Shown here in pieces: positions 55,808 to 64,000 of a stretch of DNA of 64,000 nt. The notes beneath the pieces were generated by a model. It saw nothing but the letters and a program-made list of their open reading frames with translations. It had not been told where the DNA came from and did no database searches. The stretch is from Capnocytophaga stomatis. Its GTDB lineage: Bacteria > Bacteroidota > Bacteroidia > Flavobacteriales > Flavobacteriaceae. The translations under genes and the position numbers were made by a program. The stretch lies in assembly GCF_002302635.1 (NCBI RefSeq), contig NZ_CP022387.1, positions 2,728,001-2,792,000 on the forward strand, given 5' to 3'. Numbering within the stretch: the stretch's first letter is position 1; each line of letters begins with the position of its first letter.

Positions 55808-55934
55808 TTTACAGTTAATCAATTAGTAAAAGATATATAAAAGTAGCACATTTAAAATTCTAATTTTAAATTATTGATTTCTTGTTTTGATTTTCTAAAG
55901 TAGTTATGCGTTCCAAAGCCTTTGAGATTGCTTT

Positions 55935-56117
55935 ATGCGTACCGAAAGACAAGAAATCTTCTGTATAAAAAGTGTACTCCTTTTGGCTTTTTTTATTTTT
56001 ACAGCATTGCCTATTTTAATAAATACTATTGAACATACTGTAAGTCATCATAAAGAATGTCTATACAATCTTCAGAGTGAAAAATTTGACCACTTCGTAA
56101 AGTTTCTGACAGATTGA
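55935..56117 (+). CDS. doubtful small membrane ORF
   Basis: 60 codons with a hydrophobic segment SVLLLAFFIFTALPILI and a His/Cys-rich end (HTVSHHKEC). Its last third overlaps the 3' end of the convergent gene at 56026. The profile recalls short His-rich membrane proteins found in flavobacteria, perhaps a truncated one. I cannot rule out a chance ORF. Confidence 0.25.
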   Translation: MRTERQEIFCIKSVLLLAFFIFTALPILINTIEHTVSHHKECLYNLQSEKFDHFVKFLTD

Positions 56118-56955
56118 CAACCAAATAATTATCTTTATCGTTGTATGCTTTCCTCGCTTCTTCTTGGTCTTTAGGGTCACTATAAGGAATAGAAAGACAT
56201 TCTTCGTAATATTTTTTTTCTAATGCATATTCTTTTATTTCTTCCCATAGGGAATTTTGAAATCTATCCAAAATCAATTGAGCAGAGCCTTGATCTGGGA
56301 AATAGATGATTTCTGTAGCACCGACTTTTTGATACAATTCGATATTTTTTTGCCTAAACTCAAGAAAATATGGGCTTGGCACTTCTTCTTTTAGATTATT
56401 GATAAACCCAAACCAACGAAAAGGCTCTATGATTGAAAAACTAATGAAGTCTTTCATTATGTCTATATAACAAATTTCGTATAAATCTCTATTTCTTAAA
56501 TCATTACCACAAAAAAGTTCATACTTTATTAAACCTCGTTTTACACTTTCTATCTCCTCTATGTCCGATTGATATATTTTACCTTTAGAAAATAACTCTT
56601 TTAATTCGCTTGATGTTTTATTGGACAAACTTTTAGCAAAATAGAAATCATCCCAAAGTGTAAACCATTCTGCTTTTTCATCATAAATAATTTCACCCAA
56701 ATCGACTTTTTCTTCATAAAGCCTATCTTTAAAAGCTTTGCAAGAAATGTTGATTTTCAATATTTCGGACAATTGTTTTGCCAATGTTTCTATATTTGAA
56801 ATGTCTAGCGTGTGGTTTCCCATAGAACAAATATCCCACCCCATATTTAAATAATTTTTAGTATTAATTTTGTCTATAAATTTCACACCCAGTCTCGAAT
56901 TCACTTCTTCACTTTCAATAATCAGTAAAGTTGAAATCAATTGATATTTTACCAC
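56026..56955 (-). CDS. hypothetical protein, start uncertain
   Basis: 309 codons from a GTG at 56955; the first in-frame ATG is about 38 codons later. No signal, TM or known motif. It is acidic with many Tyr/Glu (EEKVDLGEIIYDEKAEWF, EVPSPYFLEFRQKNIELY), and its C-terminus is DCIDILYDDLQYVQ. An in-frame TAA at 56962 separates it from an upstream open segment in the same frame, so it may be the rest of a longer, interrupted gene. Resembles large immunity-like proteins only in general composition. Confidence 0.55.
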   Translation of the reverse strand: MVKYQLISTLLIIESEEVNSRLGVKFIDKINTKNYLNMGWDICSMGNHTLDISNIETLAKQLSEILKINISCKAFKDRLYEEKVDLGEIIYDEKAEWFTLWDDFYFAKSLSNKTSSELKELFSKGKIYQSDIEEIESVKRGLIKYELFCGNDLRNRDLYEICYIDIMKDFISFSIIEPFRWFGFINNLKEEVPSPYFLEFRQKNIELYQKVGATEIIYFPDQGSAQLILDRFQNSLWEEIKEYALEKKYYEECLSIPYSDPKDQEEARKAYNDKDNYLVVNLSETLRSGQIFHSEDCIDILYDDLQYVQ

Positions 56956-56961
56956 CGTCGA

Positions 56962-57138
56962 TTATTTTATTGAAGACCTCAAAAAAACTAATTTTTTTTC
57001 TGAATAATAATTCTTGAGCAATTCCGTCAGTAATTTTTGTCTGTCTTTTTCGACCAAGTGTGATTTTATCTGATTCCAAGATTTTTCAAATTCCGAAAAA
57101 TCTCTTATTTCTGTTGTCTTTATAAGTCGGTTTTTTAT
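56962..57138 (-). pseudogene. truncated C-terminal gene fragment
   Basis: Open in one frame for about 58 codons with no ATG, encoding a charged helical peptide (SEFEKSWNQIKSHLVEKDRQ). It ends at TAA 56962-56964 and is in the same frame as the following ORF at 56026-56955. Its 5' side is cut off within 5 bases of the wecB stop. It looks like a gene remnant truncated by the arrival of the glycan cassette, or the head of an interrupted gene. Confidence 0.55.
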
Positions 57139-57142
57139 CTAA

Positions 57143-58276
57143 CTATGTGTCTATTTTTTGTAATTGTTCTATTATTCTATTTGCTGTTTTTCCATCCCAA
57201 AATTTTGGGATTTCCTTTCGTTTTTTGTGTAATCCTTTTATAATTAAATCTATTTCGTTTGATAATTCTGTGATAGTTGTTAATTTGTTACTACCTATCC
57301 ATACGGTTATTGGTCGTTCCGTATTTGCTCGTAATGTTAAACAAGGAATATCGAGATAGGTCGTTTCTTCTTGAATACCTCCAGAATCAGTTATTACAAA
57401 CAAAGATTTAGAAAGTAAGTTTAAAAAGTGCAAATATCCCAACGGCTCAACAACAAATAAGTTTGGATATCTTTCTATTAAGTATATCAAATTCCATTCT
57501 TGTATATTTTTTAATGTGCGAAAATGCATTGGAAAGACTAAAGGTACTTTTTGTGAAATACTACCCAGCTCCTGAATTATGTCTGTTAGGAATTCTTTTG
57601 AATCTACATTGCCTGATCTATGTAAAGTTACAATGCCATACTTTTTTTCTTTGAAATCGGTACTCACTAAAGGTACTTTTGAGTTACTATATCTATTAAG
57701 CTCGAATTCTTTAATCATTGCCTTAGGTAACTGAGAAATCAAAGTGTCAATCATTAAATTACCTAACATAAATATTTTTTCATTAGAGATGTTTTCTTTA
57801 ATTAAGTTAGATGTTGCATCCTCTGTTGTCGTGAAATAAAAATCACTTATCGAATCTGTTACTCTACGATTTATTTCTTCAGGCATACTTTTGTCGTAGC
57901 TTCTTAATCCAGCTTCATAGTGAATAATTTTAATTCTCAATTTTGCGGCTACCAATGAACATGCAATAGTACTATTAACATCCCCAACTACAAAAACATA
58001 CTCAGGTCTTTCGTTAAGACAAACTTTTTCAAATCGTTCCATTATTTTGGCAGTTTGCACCGTTTGACTTCCAGAACCAACTCCTAAATTTATGTTGGGC
58101 AAAGGAATATCTAAATCTGTAAAGAAATGACTTGACATTTTATCGTCATAATGTTGTCCAGTATGAACAATAATGAACTTTATTGCTTTTTGATAAATAA
58201 AATGAGGTATCAAAGGAGCAATCTTTATAAAATTTGGTCTTGTTCCTACCACGACAATTATTTTTTTCGTTTTCAT
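57143..58276 (-). CDS. wecB: UDP-N-acetylglucosamine 2-epimerase (non-hydrolysing)
   Basis: Interconverts UDP-GlcNAc and UDP-ManNAc for surface glycan synthesis. 377 residues from the ATG at 58276, which overlaps the preceding gene stop as ATGA; a longer in-frame start at 58393 lies inside that gene. VVVGTRPNFIKIAPLI, HTGQHYDDKMSSHFF, VVGDVNSTIACS, HYEAGLRSYDKSMPEEINR, TLHRSGNVDS and SGGIQEETTYLDIPCL are all conserved. Last gene of the seven-gene operon. Confidence 0.92.
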   Translation of the reverse strand: MKTKKIIVVVGTRPNFIKIAPLIPHFIYQKAIKFIIVHTGQHYDDKMSSHFFTDLDIPLPNINLGVGSGSQTVQTAKIMERFEKVCLNERPEYVFVVGDVNSTIACSLVAAKLRIKIIHYEAGLRSYDKSMPEEINRRVTDSISDFYFTTTEDATSNLIKENISNEKIFMLGNLMIDTLISQLPKAMIKEFELNRYSNSKVPLVSTDFKEKKYGIVTLHRSGNVDSKEFLTDIIQELGSISQKVPLVFPMHFRTLKNIQEWNLIYLIERYPNLFVVEPLGYLHFLNLLSKSLFVITDSGGIQEETTYLDIPCLTLRANTERPITVWIGSNKLTTITELSNEIDLIIKGLHKKRKEIPKFWDGKTANRIIEQLQKIDT

Positions 58277-59421
58277 CTCTTGAGACATAGTATTTCTTCT
58301 AATAACTTTTCTTTCTGATTTTCTATTGAAAATTGTGAAGTACTTTCGATAGCTTTTTGTGATTGATCTCGATAAAAATAAGGATTTGTGCATAAATCAT
58401 ATACTTTTTGTGCCATATCATCCACATTTTTAACATAGGAAATTCCTTCACCTGATTCAATATATTCAGATAGACAATCAATATTATCATAGACGACAGT
58501 GGGCAAACCTGCACTTAATCCTTCAAAAATACCTCTGCCAAACGTTTCCCAACGAGATACAGAGATATTGATATCTACATCGTTTAATAGCTCAGCTATT
58601 TCTTTTTGGGATAATACTCCGCAAAAAGAAATATTATTTTTAACTCCTAATTCAAAAGCTAAATCAATACAATGAGAGTATAATGTTTCATCTTGTATAG
58701 CTCCCACTAGGTATAAGTGAAAATTTTCGTTTTTTTGCTTTAATTTCGAAAGTAATATGATTGCATCATTATTTCTTTTTTGTTGTCTGATTGCCCCAAT
58801 ATAAATCAATTTGTTGGTTTTCGATTGATATCGTACTTTACCTTTAATATATAAATTTGTAGCTCTAGGAATTACAACTATATGTTTCTCATAAATACCA
58901 TATTCATTAATTATATCTTTTTTTTCTGATTGACTTGGTGAAATAATTTTTTCTATCTTGGATAATATTCTTTGTTCTGCTTCCACATATTCATCTGGAA
59001 CAATTTCGTTTGATCTTCTATAAGAAGAAGTTAAATACATCGGGAACAAAATAATCTTTTTCAACAGTTCCTTTGGTAGATTTTCTAGACCAAAAGCTTT
59101 ACTACAATGGATAATTATTACCTTGTCATATTGTGGTATGAATTGTGATATCAATTCGCTATTCCATTTGCTGTTTGCTATCCTCCTTAGGAACTTATTA
59201 CTCTCTCTAAATTTATTCGTGTGAAAAATAACTTTTCTGACACCATTAATGTTATTGAAATGAGCATTATATGTTCTTGTAAATAAAACATCAACTGTAC
59301 AGACACCTCGTAAAGCATCAATTAAATGATTAACCATAATACTTCCTCCATCAGTGTCAGAAGAGGTGCCAGGAAATTTCCCTGTAACTAATAAGACATT
59401 CTTAACTCCAAAGATTTTCAT
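58273..59421 (-). CDS. GT4-family glycosyltransferase
   Basis: 382 residues from the ATG at 59421; a TTG seven codons upstream is not needed. GT-B fold: N-terminal domain with VLLVTGKFPGTSSDTDGGS, C-terminal domain with LIYIGAIRQQKRNND, the ISVSRWETFGRGIFEGLSAG block and ExxE-like Glu residues of retaining GT4 enzymes. Donor and acceptor unknown. Overlaps the next gene (wecB) by ATGA and the previous GT gene by 20 bases. Confidence 0.85.
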   Translation of the reverse strand: MKIFGVKNVLLVTGKFPGTSSDTDGGSIMVNHLIDALRGVCTVDVLFTRTYNAHFNNINGVRKVIFHTNKFRESNKFLRRIANSKWNSELISQFIPQYDKVIIIHCSKAFGLENLPKELLKKIILFPMYLTSSYRRSNEIVPDEYVEAEQRILSKIEKIISPSQSEKKDIINEYGIYEKHIVVIPRATNLYIKGKVRYQSKTNKLIYIGAIRQQKRNNDAIILLSKLKQKNENFHLYLVGAIQDETLYSHCIDLAFELGVKNNISFCGVLSQKEIAELLNDVDINISVSRWETFGRGIFEGLSAGLPTVVYDNIDCLSEYIESGEGISYVKNVDDMAQKVYDLCTNPYFYRDQSQKAIESTSQFSIENQKEKLLEEILCLKR

Positions 59422-60496
59422 ACTGGCTAAAAATTTTCTCAAAACTATATTCTTTCAAATAACTTTGTCTAGATGTCTCTTTCAGTGGAGGCAACGCAAT
59501 CACTTTTTCAATCTGTTTAGCAAATTCTACTTCACTATCTTCTGAGACTATTCCATTTTCAGAATTTATGAACTCTCCCACAGCACCACAATTAGTAACT
59601 ACCACGCTTGTACCGCTGCATATTGCTTCAATCAGACTTCTTCCCATACCTTCAGTATGAATATATTTTCCACCTCTTACTTCTACAAGTAAATCTGTAC
59701 TGGCTTGACAGTAAACATTTGCTGCTGCAATGATGTTTAATGTTTCTTCCTGAGTTAATCTACCCAAAAACCGTACATTTAAGTTCAGTCTTTTTGCTAG
59801 TACTTTTGCATCATCAAGTAAATCTCCGTCTCCAACTAAAACAATTTTGTATTTTTGAGGTAGGTATTGAAATGAGCGAAGTAAAAAATCCGTTCTCTTA
59901 TATGGAACGAAACGACAACAACATACAATCAAGGTCTCAGTGCTTATATTCAACAAGGTTCTTGTTTTTGAGATTTTATTAACAGCTTCTTGAATATTAG
60001 ATAAATCAACCCCTCCAGAAATTATTCTTATGATACTACTTTTTATTCCTAACTCAATTAGTCGTAGCTTTGTAAATTGGCTATTTGCAATTAAAAAATC
60101 AATATTTCGATTAATTGTACTTACCCAGTAATTCTGTCTTTCAGTATGACTAGCAATATCTAGAGATAATGGAGCTTTGTTAATTTCATTGCCTCCTGTT
60201 CGATATAGGAAACAAGCTTTTTTTAATACGGATTTTATTTTACTAAAGCATTCAATCCAATAACCGCTATTGTAGAAAACTATGCAGTCTGTATTTTCGA
60301 AGGATTTTAGAAAATTTAATAAATCTATTTTTTCAACTGTTTGAAATTCATTATTTACAATAACATCACAGCCATTTCTATTAGAAATAATTATTAACTC
60401 ATTCTCTTTTGAGAAGTGTTTTATAAAATATTTTGCATGAGTTTCCATTCCGCCGATATTAGGAGGCAATTTGTCCGCAAACAGTAGTATTTTCAT
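59402..60496 (-). CDS. GT4-family glycosyltransferase
   Basis: 364 residues from the ATG at 60496, in an ATGA overlap with the HAD gene. KLPPNIGGMETHAKYFIKHF at the N-terminus gives the acceptor loop; LIVCCCRFVPYKRTDFLL and EGMGRSLIEAICSGTSVVV carry the nucleotide-sugar binding Glu and Lys/Arg. Not close to the other GT (different donor likely). Retaining mechanism by family. Confidence 0.87.
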   Translation of the reverse strand: MKILLFADKLPPNIGGMETHAKYFIKHFSKENELIIISNRNGCDVIVNNEFQTVEKIDLLNFLKSFENTDCIVFYNSGYWIECFSKIKSVLKKACFLYRTGGNEINKAPLSLDIASHTERQNYWVSTINRNIDFLIANSQFTKLRLIELGIKSSIIRIISGGVDLSNIQEAVNKISKTRTLLNISTETLIVCCCRFVPYKRTDFLLRSFQYLPQKYKIVLVGDGDLLDDAKVLAKRLNLNVRFLGRLTQEETLNIIAAANVYCQASTDLLVEVRGGKYIHTEGMGRSLIEAICSGTSVVVTNCGAVGEFINSENGIVSEDSEVEFAKQIEKVIALPPLKETSRQSYLKEYSFEKIFSQYENLWS

Positions 60497-61206
60497 AATT
60501 GTAAGTGCTTTAATGCCCAACTTACTCCATTGTTGCTAACTGACTTTGTAACGAAAGATGCTACTTGTTTAAGTTCATCAGGAGCCGTTTCCATAGCAAC
60601 AGAAATGTTGCATAATTTAAATAGATCTATATCATTGAAACCATCTCCAAACACTATACTATTTTGTAGTGAGATATTGTAATAATTACAAACCAGTTCC
60701 ATTGCCTTACTTTTTGATGTATTTGTACTGTGTACATCACAGATTTTACCATCTTCCCAGCTGTAAAAAATAAAAGAATGAAAGTTTTCCCTCAAAAAAT
60801 CTATATGATCCGAGCAATTTTTTATTTTAATTCCATAAACACATCCTTCTTCTTCAATTGAATTTGTGATATTATACTTTTTATACAGTTCGTATTGAAT
60901 TTCTTTTGATTTGAGAATATTCAAAAATTGTATTAATTCAAAATCATCAATAGGACTATCAATTAGAATATTGTTTTTACAGATAACATAAGCCCCATTT
61001 AAGGCAATTATAAAATCAAATCGTAATTGAGATATCAATTTTTCAAGCATCGTCAGATTTCTCATAGTTGCCAAACCAATGAGATTGCCTTGTTTCTGTA
61101 AAGTGAATAAATCTTGTATTAATTCAAAATTCATATGATTGTTTGGCTTTTCAATCAGCGTATTGCCAACATCAAAAACGAATATCTTTTGTTCTCTATT
61201 TTTCAT
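60493..61206 (-). CDS. HAD-superfamily hydrolase, Cof-like
   Basis: 237 residues with the Cof/C2B cap layout. Motif I is FVFDVGNTLIE: the nucleophile Asp is present but the +2 Asp general acid/base is replaced by Gly. Motif II is Thr/Ser in IGLATMR, Lys is in TNTSKSKAME and motif IV is FGDGFNDIDLFK. The +2 change is seen in some HAD subgroups and may alter or weaken phosphatase activity. A sugar phosphatase in the glycan cassette is the simplest guess. Confidence 0.78.
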   Translation of the reverse strand: MKNREQKIFVFDVGNTLIEKPNNHMNFELIQDLFTLQKQGNLIGLATMRNLTMLEKLISQLRFDFIIALNGAYVICKNNILIDSPIDDFELIQFLNILKSKEIQYELYKKYNITNSIEEEGCVYGIKIKNCSDHIDFLRENFHSFIFYSWEDGKICDVHSTNTSKSKAMELVCNYYNISLQNSIVFGDGFNDIDLFKLCNISVAMETAPDELKQVASFVTKSVSNNGVSWALKHLQL

Positions 61207-61927
61207 TGATTAAAGATTTTAGTAGTACACACTCTATCATATTTTCTTTACTCCATTTAATAAGCTCCCAAAGCAAATGATTTATTCCGTAAAAATTATT
61301 TTTGTTTTTCTTAATGGTTTCTATGGAAATGTTTTGATACTCTTCAATGGAGATACTTTTTTTTAGATTTTTCATTGTGTGAAAATTGTTACTATTAAAG
61401 GCTAAGTGCATTGGATGAAAGAGAAATACTATTGTCCCCTTTTCAGGTAGCCTTTTGAGTATAGTTTCTAAGCTTAAAGAGTGTTTTTGAAGCAAAAAGC
61501 CGCCATCTTCCATAAATAGTGGAATAGATAGTAAGCCAACTCTGTTATAAAAAGGCTGAATATAATGTAAGTCAGTACATATGTTTGAAGAATATTTATA
61601 GCCTTCTGACTTATAATATTCGTTTATTTCATTTACTTCAAAATACCTATGACATCTGAATCCCTTTTTTTCAGTTTGTAGTTGGTTACAATAATTGAAA
61701 ACTTCATCATAGGTGCTTCCGTGTGAACTATTTAAACAAAAGTTAGGATGAATTTCTAATTCAATATTATGATTATTTATAGAGCGAGAAATTAACCACT
61801 CGGAATTGTGTGTAGAGAATATAGTAAGAGGGATGTTATCTTCCAATACAGGTAAAAGTGCATATTCTATAACGGCTTCGCTTGCCCAATCCAAATCAAT
61901 GGTAAAAGCAAATTTTAAATCACTCAT
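61196..61927 (-). CDS. polysaccharide deacetylase-like protein (NodB homology)
   Basis: 243 residues, no signal peptide, so cytoplasmic. DLDWASEA near residue 10 carries the DxD catalytic/metal Asp pair and ELEIHPNF holds a metal His; FLFHPMHLAF provides the second. It resembles the WbmS-type deacetylase group of O-antigen loci. It likely removes an acetyl group from a sugar nucleotide or lipid-linked intermediate before assembly. Overlaps both neighbours by a few bases. Confidence 0.75.
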   Translation of the reverse strand: MSDLKFAFTIDLDWASEAVIEYALLPVLEDNIPLTIFSTHNSEWLISRSINNHNIELEIHPNFCLNSSHGSTYDEVFNYCNQLQTEKKGFRCHRYFEVNEINEYYKSEGYKYSSNICTDLHYIQPFYNRVGLLSIPLFMEDGGFLLQKHSLSLETILKRLPEKGTIVFLFHPMHLAFNSNNFHTMKNLKKSISIEEYQNISIETIKKNKNNFYGINHLLWELIKWSKENMIECVLLKSLINEK

Positions 61928-62553
61928 GACTCTAATAGTGGTAAAAAGTTATTATTATATATATCACAGACTGAATTCATTTGATTTTGTCTATCAATTG
62001 AATGATTATCATTTATGCCGATTACAAAAACTCCAGCCTGCTTCCCGGCAACACAATGTAAATAAGAATCATCAACTAATGTAATATTATGTATATTACA
62101 ATTATATTTTTTTGATAAGTTTATGTAAAAAATTACTTTGTTTCGATCGTTATTGTGATCTTGAAAAACTTCTGAAACTTCAAATATTTTATGATGTTTT
62201 AAGTAAGATTTTATTAAAGCAGGTTCTTCTTTTGAGATGATAATTATCTTTGAACTCAAATTATGTCTATTCTTGAGAAATTTAATGAACCCTTCTCTTG
62301 GATTTATTTTTTTGTAAATATTCTTTGCTATTTCGTTCAAAGAAGCATCTAGTAGTTTCGAATATTGTGAAGATAAAATGGTTGATTTAATTTCTTCAAT
62401 ACAATCTGAATACGAAAAATCGCATTTTTTTCGATTTGCCTTATTTGAGATAGTTATATTATATTTTTTACAATATTCTTGGTATATATCAAACCAAGCC
62501 TTTGATGAATCAAGGATTGTTCCATCAAAATCCAATATCATAAGGGACTCCAT
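61924..62553 (-). CDS. HAD-superfamily phosphatase, subfamily I
   Basis: 209 residues from the ATG at 62553; an upstream TTG at 62565 is unlikely and an in-frame ATG at 62541 is also possible. Motif I DFDGTILDSS has both Asp residues, motif II is IIIISKEE, motif IV is TLVDDSYLHC. The helical cap lies at about 20-75. Phosphatase of a small phosphorylated metabolite is inferred. ATGA overlap with the deacetylase-like gene. Confidence 0.82.
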   Translation of the reverse strand: MESLMILDFDGTILDSSKAWFDIYQEYCKKYNITISNKANRKKCDFSYSDCIEEIKSTILSSQYSKLLDASLNEIAKNIYKKINPREGFIKFLKNRHNLSSKIIIISKEEPALIKSYLKHHKIFEVSEVFQDHNNDRNKVIFYINLSKKYNCNIHNITLVDDSYLHCVAGKQAGVFVIGINDNHSIDRQNQMNSVCDIYNNNFLPLLES

Positions 62554-62567
62554 ATTATGTGTCAATC

Positions 62568-63494
62568 TTATTTGGGTGGAAAATATGAGTGATATTTTTC
62601 AAATAATTCAGCATCGATTCTATTTCTTTCAATAAGTTCTTCCATAGAATTGTAGTTTAATAAATTCTTTGTCCTTGCAGTAGTTGTCCAAGTACTTTCA
62701 GGAAGATTATATTGTGCAATTCCTGTTGCTAAAATGTTAAATAGAGATTGATTCATTTCTTTATTATCCTTAAAGTGTATATTTATATCCAAATCAGCTA
62801 ATTTTTTTTCAATTTCCTTTCTTACTTTTTGGAATTCTTTATCGTCTATTTGATGTTTGCTATCAACAGCAGTGTTATCATAGGACATGTATTGATAAAA
62901 TTTCCATTGATTAAACATTGCGTTTGCATTTTTTATTGAGTGATAAATTGAGTATACTTCTGACGCAATTCCTTGATAATTCAAGGCACTAATGACTGTG
63001 TGAAGTTTTATTTTTATTTCCTGATTAGAAAGATTTTTTATTACTTCAATGGTTTTTAAAAAATATTTATCTTTTCTATCCCTATTTCTTCCGATTAGTA
63101 GCAGTGTTTCGTCATTATTGCTGTCAATATTGATAGAAACTTCATCAATAATACCTTTCATCATTTTAGCTACATTTTGGGTAAGATAGATGCCATTTGT
63201 GTATAACTTTATATTTAAATTTTTTTCAGGGTCTTTTGACTTAAATTGTTTCATAAAATTCAAAAGTTGCAAAAACTCGTTAGGAGCACTCTTACCTATT
63301 ATTAAGGCTTCTCCCCCCGAAATAGTCAATGATCGAAATTTTAAGTTATGGTATAAGTGGTATATGAGAGCCTTCTTTTCAGAAAGACTAAGTTCTTGTT
63401 TTAATTGATACGGAGCATTTTCAAGTATACAATAGGAACAAGATAAATTGCATCTTGCTGTTATCATATAGTATCCCTTATAATATTTTATCAT
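62568..63494 (-). CDS. radical SAM enzyme of unknown function
   Basis: 308 residues, first gene of the seven-gene operon. The N-terminal CNLSCSYC has the CxxxCxxC cluster ligands (Cys 15, 19, 22), followed by LTISGGEALI (GGE SAM-binding motif) and a SPASM-free C-terminus: no further Cys pairs are seen after residue 30. VSINIDSN near residue 141 is in the typical strand-4 position. It is not viperin-like, since the flanking NxHxTxxC pattern is missing. Chemistry unknown; sugar or cyclitol dehydrogenation or epimerisation would suit the context. Confidence 0.82.
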   Translation of the reverse strand: MIKYYKGYYMITARCNLSCSYCILENAPYQLKQELSLSEKKALIYHLYHNLKFRSLTISGGEALIIGKSAPNEFLQLLNFMKQFKSKDPEKNLNIKLYTNGIYLTQNVAKMMKGIIDEVSINIDSNNDETLLLIGRNRDRKDKYFLKTIEVIKNLSNQEIKIKLHTVISALNYQGIASEVYSIYHSIKNANAMFNQWKFYQYMSYDNTAVDSKHQIDDKEFQKVRKEIEKKLADLDINIHFKDNKEMNQSLFNILATGIAQYNLPESTWTTTARTKNLLNYNSMEELIERNRIDAELFEKYHSYFPPK

Positions 63495-63735
63495 TTTATT
63501 ACTTTTTTATTGCATTATATCGGACGGAATTATTCTTTGAACTATTTTTCATGCTAATCTAAATAATCCAACTTGCTAATTATAAATAAAAAAGCGAAGC
63601 AAAAGTTTTGTAGTTTTGTGTTTGGCTATAAAAAACACAATTCCAATGCTTTGCAAAGACAAAATTACAGCTATTTTTTGTTTATTGATGACATTTTAAA
63701 AGAAATTTATCCTATTGAAGATAAATGCTGTAAAA
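63495..63735. other. operon upstream region
   Basis: About 240 AT-rich bases between the radical SAM gene and a mobile-element relic. CAAAATTA at 63660-63667 is a TAATTTTG -7 box on the minus strand but lies 166 bases from the ATG, so it is a weak promoter candidate. No ORF. Confidence 0.4.
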
Positions 63736-64000
63736 TCAGTGATAGTGAGGACTTAAATTCATCAAAGCACAAACCTCAGAAATACTCAAATACATCTTCT
63801 TGTTTAAAGGCTCTATATCAGTACTTTCAGAAATATTATTAACTTTCAAAACTTTTTTTCAACAGATTGTTCTTCCTTTACTTTTTCAAGTTTTTCTTGT
63901 TTTATCCTTTGTTTATAAGCCTTTTGACTACACTTATGAGACAATACTTCGTGTAAAAAGTTTTTGCTATAAACTGTTCTTTACAATGAACACAAATACG
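63736..64000 (-). pseudogene. frameshifted excisionase/HTH protein remnant
   Basis: Minus strand from the window edge encodes RICVHCKEQFIAKTFYTKYC, a zinc-finger-like start; one frameshift later it continues SHKCSQKAYKQRIKQEKLEK to a TGA at 63846. After a further shift it continues NKKMYLSISEVCALMNLS to a stop at 63736. The order zinc-finger, KQRI helix, LSISEVCALMNLS helix-turn-helix start matches excisionase-like proteins of Bacteroidetes mobile elements. At least two frameshifts and stops show decay. It extends beyond the window. Confidence 0.6.

Follow-up and report, generated by a model that had tools for sequence, protein, structure and literature searches.

The operon described here, from Capnocytophaga stomatis, encodes a divergent radical SAM enzyme of the viperin fold side by side with enzymes that build and trim amino sugars. 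It lies within a stretch of 64,000 nucleotides that was analysed as a whole (the window), and its core recurs in other genomes as a cassette that is rare and has spread horizontally across phyla. Since a relative of viperin shares its gene set with amino-sugar building and trimming enzymes, the cassette suggests that the viperin fold has been reused for a sugar- or nucleoside-type small molecule.

Seven open reading frames on the minus strand fill positions 63494 to 57143 with no gene between them. In the order of transcription, they encode the radical SAM enzyme, a HAD_2 protein, a WbmS-like deacetylase, a Cof-type HAD, two GT4 glycosyltransferases (GT4a, then GT4b) and a 2-epimerase (Table 1). 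Pfam and NCBIfam back every one of these family calls, in agreement with the assignments of the first-pass annotation (radical SAM, HAD, NodB-like deacetylase, Cof-type HAD, two GT4 and WecB). Three of the listed ORF starts are too long, better ones being 58288 for WecB, 59421 for GT4b and 60496 for GT4a. Read from the sequence, each gene overlaps the next or is separated from it by a few bases. ATGA joins HAD_2 to the deacetylase and the Cof-type HAD to GT4a, and overlaps are found at the deacetylase/Cof (11 bp), GT4a/GT4b (about 20 bp) and, given the WecB start at 58288, GT4b/WecB (about 16 bp) junctions. The first-pass description of seven minus-strand genes linked by ATGA or short overlaps is borne out by these junctions, with a short gap between the radical SAM and HAD genes, where TAA is followed by ATG at 62553, and TTG at 62565 is an alternative start.

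Table 1. The operon, its island and the accompanying orphan reading frame, in window coordinates.
Feature	Position	Strand	Evidence
Viperin-fold radical SAM enzyme, 308 aa	62568..63494	(-)	PF04055; NF038283 93 bits; PADLOC pVip; structure model
HAD_2 phosphatase-like protein, DxDGT intact	61924..62553	(-)	PF13419 1.9e-16
WbmS-like NodB-fold polysaccharide deacetylase	61196..61927	(-)	PF22537 1.2e-32; PDB 3hft profile match 9.4e-17
Cof-type HAD-IIB hydrolase	60493..61206	(-)	PF08282 9e-40
GT4 glycosyltransferase a	59402..60496	(-)	PF00534 2.2e-21
GT4 glycosyltransferase b	58273..59421	(-)	PF00534 1e-21
Non-hydrolysing UDP-GlcNAc-type 2-epimerase (WecB/WbpI family)	57143..58288	(-)	TIGR00236 312 bits
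Orphan 309-aa ORF on the same island	56026..56955	(-)	no library match
Island between aroC and degraded stretch downstream of mnmE	55808..63750		alignment breakpoints vs relatives

The viperin fold of the radical SAM protein is the key point that the first-pass annotation overlooked. The best NCBIfam model for this protein is the viperin model NF038283 (93 bits, the next being moaA with 61), a score that falls below the curated cut-off of 180 bits; because MoaA-like proteins approach it, scoring up to about 80 bits on the same model, the viperin identity is not rested on this score. The sole PADLOC match is pVip (two models), at 99.8 bits over residues 9–297. Against seven true viperins, the profile–profile alignment extends over 226 columns and takes in the C-terminal N-x2-M-x2-S motif, whereas against MoaA it covers 175 columns of the core only. 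In a tree of viperins and MoaA-like proteins, the long-branched cassette clade groups with the viperins (97/89). A structure model built from the five cassette proteins alone (pLDDT 69, moderate confidence) ranks viperins at places 1 to 11. This viperin-free model serves as a control for a second one, in which 20 viral viperins were added to the alignment (pLDDT 90.3) and which is biased to the viperin fold by that alignment; mouse viperin in complex with CTP superposes on this second model at Z 28.1 (268 residues, rmsd 2.5), and the model's Z scores are 27–28 for viperins (residues 2–307), about 22 for SuiB/SkfB and 18–19 for MoaA/BlsE. These data leave little doubt that the enzyme is viperin-fold and divergent.

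The divergence affects residues that are otherwise invariant. H79, N222, R245, E293 and Y302 (mouse numbering) are present in 20 of 20 viral viperins and in none of the five clade members, which carry M/L10, H165, Q/K/Y/C196, K242 and L251 in their place. These mouse residue numbers come from alignment with an offset of 44, anchored on C84, K220, K247 and Y302 of mouse viperin, an enzyme in which several of the replaced positions, Y302 among them, touch the triphosphate or the ribose radical. By contrast, the five members all keep CxxxCxxC, GGE, N100-G101, D124, G135-R136, K163 (mouse K220), V167, N172, W197-K198 (mouse W246-K247), N244, M247 and S250. All viperins of tested function make, to our knowledge, ddh-nucleotides; because residues invariant in true viperins are lost, ordinary ddhNTP synthesis is unlikely here, and for the same reason strict SAND membership is not claimed. 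The pattern says that the same scaffold and phosphate-binding lysines probably serve a different substrate or chemistry. As the two lysines are retained, the substrate is likely phosphorylated. In IMG/VR, full-length viperin-like genes were also observed on at least 20 viral contigs (L082–L102).

A cassette of two GT4s, Cof-type HAD, radical SAM enzyme and deacetylase is also found in four other genomes, and two phyla are represented. The first-pass annotation had listed a gene order conserved nowhere among the findings that would count against it; in a Chitinophagaceae genome (L004), all seven genes stand in identical order with 56–78% identity. In a Rhodocyclaceae genome (L005), Caedibacter (L006) and a gammaproteobacterial MAG (L007), a single operon holds GT4a, a GT4b–Cof fusion, the radical SAM enzyme (47–48% identical to that of the window) and the deacetylase (37–43%). 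A gene of the PF04029 family, 2-phosphosulpholactate-phosphatase-like, is convergent with the deacetylase gene and overlaps it, in an identical arrangement in these three distant genomes (L005 10910–12330, L006 10909–12253, L007 4144–5494); it was called by domain search in L006 and L007 and by sequence likeness in L005. The Caedibacter operon continues with a fused ABC exporter and then an epimerase (45%). The epimerase is thus present in three of the five cassette copies, none being seen in the stretch read in L005 and L007. The core therefore consists of GT4a, GT4b, Cof-type HAD, radical SAM enzyme and deacetylase; it is accompanied by a further phosphatase, whose family differs between copies, and the epimerase is optional. 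That this cassette is a real conserved unit can be stated with high confidence.

A scan of the whole collection with exact peptides of one sequence gave four matches among 84,980 genomes, which is a lower bound. No members beyond the seeds were found in the phylum (395 genomes), in the families of L005 (200) and L004 (396), or in the orders of L006 and L007. Plasmid matches were distant viperins or MoaA only. Viral or phage carriage was also considered and rejected, as no copies were found in 2.9 million viral contigs, where conserved patterns were tried, or in phage records. With five copies known, neighbourhood statistics are thin. The surroundings of all five lack any recognisable undecaprenyl transferase, flippase, polymerase or ligase, and the single fused ABC exporter of Caedibacter is the only exporter beside the four other copies.

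The partner enzymes show varying degrees of conservation. The HAD_2 protein is 56% identical to the counterpart at the same place in the Chitinophagaceae genome. The deacetylase scores 113.8 bits on PF22537 against a gathering threshold of 27; its motifs TxDLDW, H60, H149 and HPMH are invariant across the five genomes, and its closest solved structure is WbmS (PDB 3hft). In the window and in L004, motif I of the Cof-type HAD reads DVGNT (FDVGNTL) and not DxDGT / DxDx[TV], whereas the fused proteobacterial proteins keep DFDGT. Lacking the usual second Asp of this motif, the Cof-type HAD of the window may be altered or not a normal phosphatase. GT4a has counterparts in all four other loci (39–72% identical), and that of GT4b is fused to the Cof-type HAD in the three proteobacterial ones. 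Finally, the epimerase exceeds the TIGR00236 cut-off (312.6 bits against 210). In profile scores, it reaches 281 bits with 4neq, the closest solved structure, 254 with UDP-GlcNAc3NAcA 2-epimerases and about 155 with the E. coli-type WecB. As it stands nearer to the UDP-GlcNAc3NAcA 2-epimerases than to WecB of E. coli, the sugar donor is uncertain.

In C. stomatis, the operon lies on an island 8 kb long. Same-genus genomes align only up to 55780 (aroC) on one side, and alignment resumes on the other at 64772 (mnmE), or at 63751 in one of them. The radical SAM gene is present in one of 20 species genomes of the genus. The first-pass impression of AT-richness was correct: with a G+C of 0.296, the operon falls below all 163 equal-length windows from about 94 kb around (mean 0.346, sd 0.016, minimum 0.300). 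The island also carries an orphan 309-aa ORF that has no match in Pfam, NCBIfam, PADLOC, PHROG or PDB and is absent from the 19 other species of the genus. Remnants of genes broken by frameshifts (CVHCKEQFIAKTFYTKYC / SHKCSQKAYKQRIKQEK / LSISEVCALMNLSP) lie directly upstream of the radical SAM gene, at positions 63580–64000 of the minus strand. By eye, they resemble a relic of a Bacteroidota mobile-element excisionase or HTH protein; Pfam gives no mobile-element support for them. Gene relics had been noted on both flanks, and these remnants are found on the upstream side, at about 63.75–64.0 kb, none being confirmed on the other. Two opposite-strand copies of what is apparently one 264-aa transposase-like ORF (MSKDIIKKWIISHLSIGKRG...) lie about 9 and 14 kb upstream of the operon (L002 9765–10559 and 14724–15518), and aroC of one same-genus genome (G003:C112:18818–19897) is reported with an internal TGA. 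The flanks in the window genome were judged from ORF translations, with Pfam applied to the cassette genes only. In these translations, no Wzx, Wzy, ABC exporter or sugar-phosphate transferase is seen in or beside the operon, within the window and just upstream, which upholds the absence of flippase, polymerase and ABC exporter first reported for the locus.

We tentatively propose that the cassette makes a soluble, exported small molecule bearing an amino sugar, and that the viperin-like enzyme works on a nucleotide or a nucleotide sugar. The product of this horizontally acquired cassette could, with similar caution, be a pseudo-oligosaccharide or a glycosylated nucleoside. The epimerase would supply a UDP-ManNAc-type donor. 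The two retained lysines of the radical SAM enzyme would hold a phosphorylated substrate, either a nucleotide or a nucleotide sugar; the enzyme would cleave SAM and abstract a hydrogen from the sugar moiety of this substrate, which would end up deoxygenated or dehydrated. The GT4s would attach one or two HexNAc units, the HADs would take off the handling phosphate(s), and the deacetylase would free the amine. The product would then leave the cell, in one relative via the co-encoded ABC transporter. A logic of glycosyl transfer, dephosphorylation and deacetylation recalls the mycothiol and aminoglycoside routes. A soluble small-molecule route fits better than a surface polysaccharide because the cassette is self-contained, horizontally spread and combines glycosyl transfer, dephosphorylation and de-N-acetylation with a radical step. 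With the invariant viperin residues lost, the radical chemistry is a prediction and is offered as such, guardedly. Somewhat more speculatively, the antiviral viperin fold may have been turned to remodelling the sugar moiety of nucleotides or nucleotide sugars, within a pathway that is mobile, crosses phyla and makes a glycosylated small molecule, probably exported and possibly bioactive. The open-access literature covered here yielded no viperin-like enzyme tied to a glycosyltransferase or deacetylase cluster.

An alternative that we regard as rather unlikely is that the cassette decorates a surface glycan, adding an unusual terminal sugar to an LPS, capsule or glycolipid whose synthesis genes lie elsewhere in the genome. 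Such a role in the Bordetella O-antigen is attributed to WbmS-type deacetylases, and it is from an O-antigen locus that the closest solved relative of the deacetylase comes; WecB/WbpI-type epimerases, like GT4s, typically belong to surface-glycan synthesis, and the window copy has no exporter. However, a radical SAM step is unusual in surface-glycan routes, and in five genomes of two phyla the five-gene core forms an isolated unit, where no initiating transferase, flippase, polymerase or ligase was seen in the surroundings. The first-pass rejection of an ordinary O-antigen or capsule locus holds, the core being without polymer-export machinery in the four other genomes, and the small-molecule glycan route that it put forward is still the best fit. 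An antiviral system appears improbable. There, the viperin-like enzyme would still make a chain-terminating ddh-nucleotide, which the other genes would glycosylate, store or release. The viperin fold, the pVip match, the two lysines with the W-K motif and a sporadic, island-borne distribution agree with such a system, but all five members have exchanged residues that never vary in the pVips of viruses and plasmids, the Tyr at mouse position 302 among them, no nucleotide kinase is a neighbour, and no copy was found in the viral contigs with the conserved patterns tried or in phage records. The candidacy of a plain pVip defence gene is lowered by the same replacements.

The first-pass annotation had compared the operon with BtrN, BtrD and BtrM, i.e. 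with a butirosin-like aminocyclitol antibiotic route, the joint presence of glycosyltransferase, deacetylase, phosphatase and radical SAM genes being in its favour. This reading is very improbable, and a BtrN-like route was rejected: CxxxCxxC at residues 15–22 (Cys 15, 19 and 22) provides the only cysteines of the radical SAM protein, which hence cannot hold the auxiliary cluster of BtrN. The SPASM/twitch auxiliary [4Fe-4S] cysteines of the BtrN type are absent from its C-terminal half, and its kinship is to viperin, not to SPASM proteins. The deacetylase is WbmS-like and of a different family, BtrD being of the PIG-L type, and the cassette has no cyclitol synthase or aminotransferase. A nucleoside-glycoside antibiotic like tunicamycin or blasticidin, with radical SAM chemistry on a nucleoside-sugar and neighbouring genes for GT, deacetylase, epimerase, phosphatase and ABC proteins, is a narrower form of the best explanation and, so specified, has a low probability. 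The functional list of tunicamycin-type clusters is similar (PMC6965331), and the structure model matches BlsE at Z 19; however, BlsE lies well below the viperins in fold similarity, and there is no acyltransferase, cytosine glycosyltransferase or sugar dehydratase.

Should the preferred small-molecule route be true, viperin chemistry would reach past antiviral nucleotides, and a new metabolite would come with a compact set of seven genes open to testing. Each known system resembles this cassette in part. The deacetylase shares with WbmS its family (PF22537) and the conserved metal- and catalytic-type motifs, but WbmS belongs to an O-antigen locus, whereas the enzyme described here lies outside any such locus. 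The epimerase joins the WecB/WbpI non-hydrolysing UDP-HexNAc 2-epimerases by its TIGR00236 score, while scoring nearer to 4neq and the UDP-GlcNAc3NAcA enzymes than to WecB of E. coli. With butirosin btrN/btrD/btrM, only functional words are shared (radical SAM, deacetylase, glycosyltransferase); the present cassette has neither auxiliary-cluster cysteines nor cyclitol genes, and its deacetylase is of another family. In tunicamycin-type clusters, tunA-H encode epimerases, radical SAM enzyme, GT, deacetylase, phosphatase and pyrophosphatase (PMC6965331). The likeness is one of functional list (radical SAM, GT, N-deacetylase, sugar epimerase and phosphatases), whereas the present cassette is without acyltransferase or dehydratase and its radical SAM enzyme is viperin-like. 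The closest kin of that enzyme are the viperin/SAND/pVip/RSAD2 proteins, with which it shares a single radical SAM domain of about 300 aa, CxxxCxxC, the fold over residues 2–307, K220, W246, K247, N-x2-M-x2-S and the G-R of the IGR motif. It differs from them in an identity of only 18–22% and in a replaced C-terminal arginine as well. Whereas viperins stand alone or with a kinase, the enzyme described here sits in a sugar cassette, as a conserved side branch that travels with amino-sugar enzymes. This branch retains the fold and a pair of phosphate-binding lysines, but its catalytic Tyr and four further invariant residues (Asn, Arg, Glu and His) are gone.
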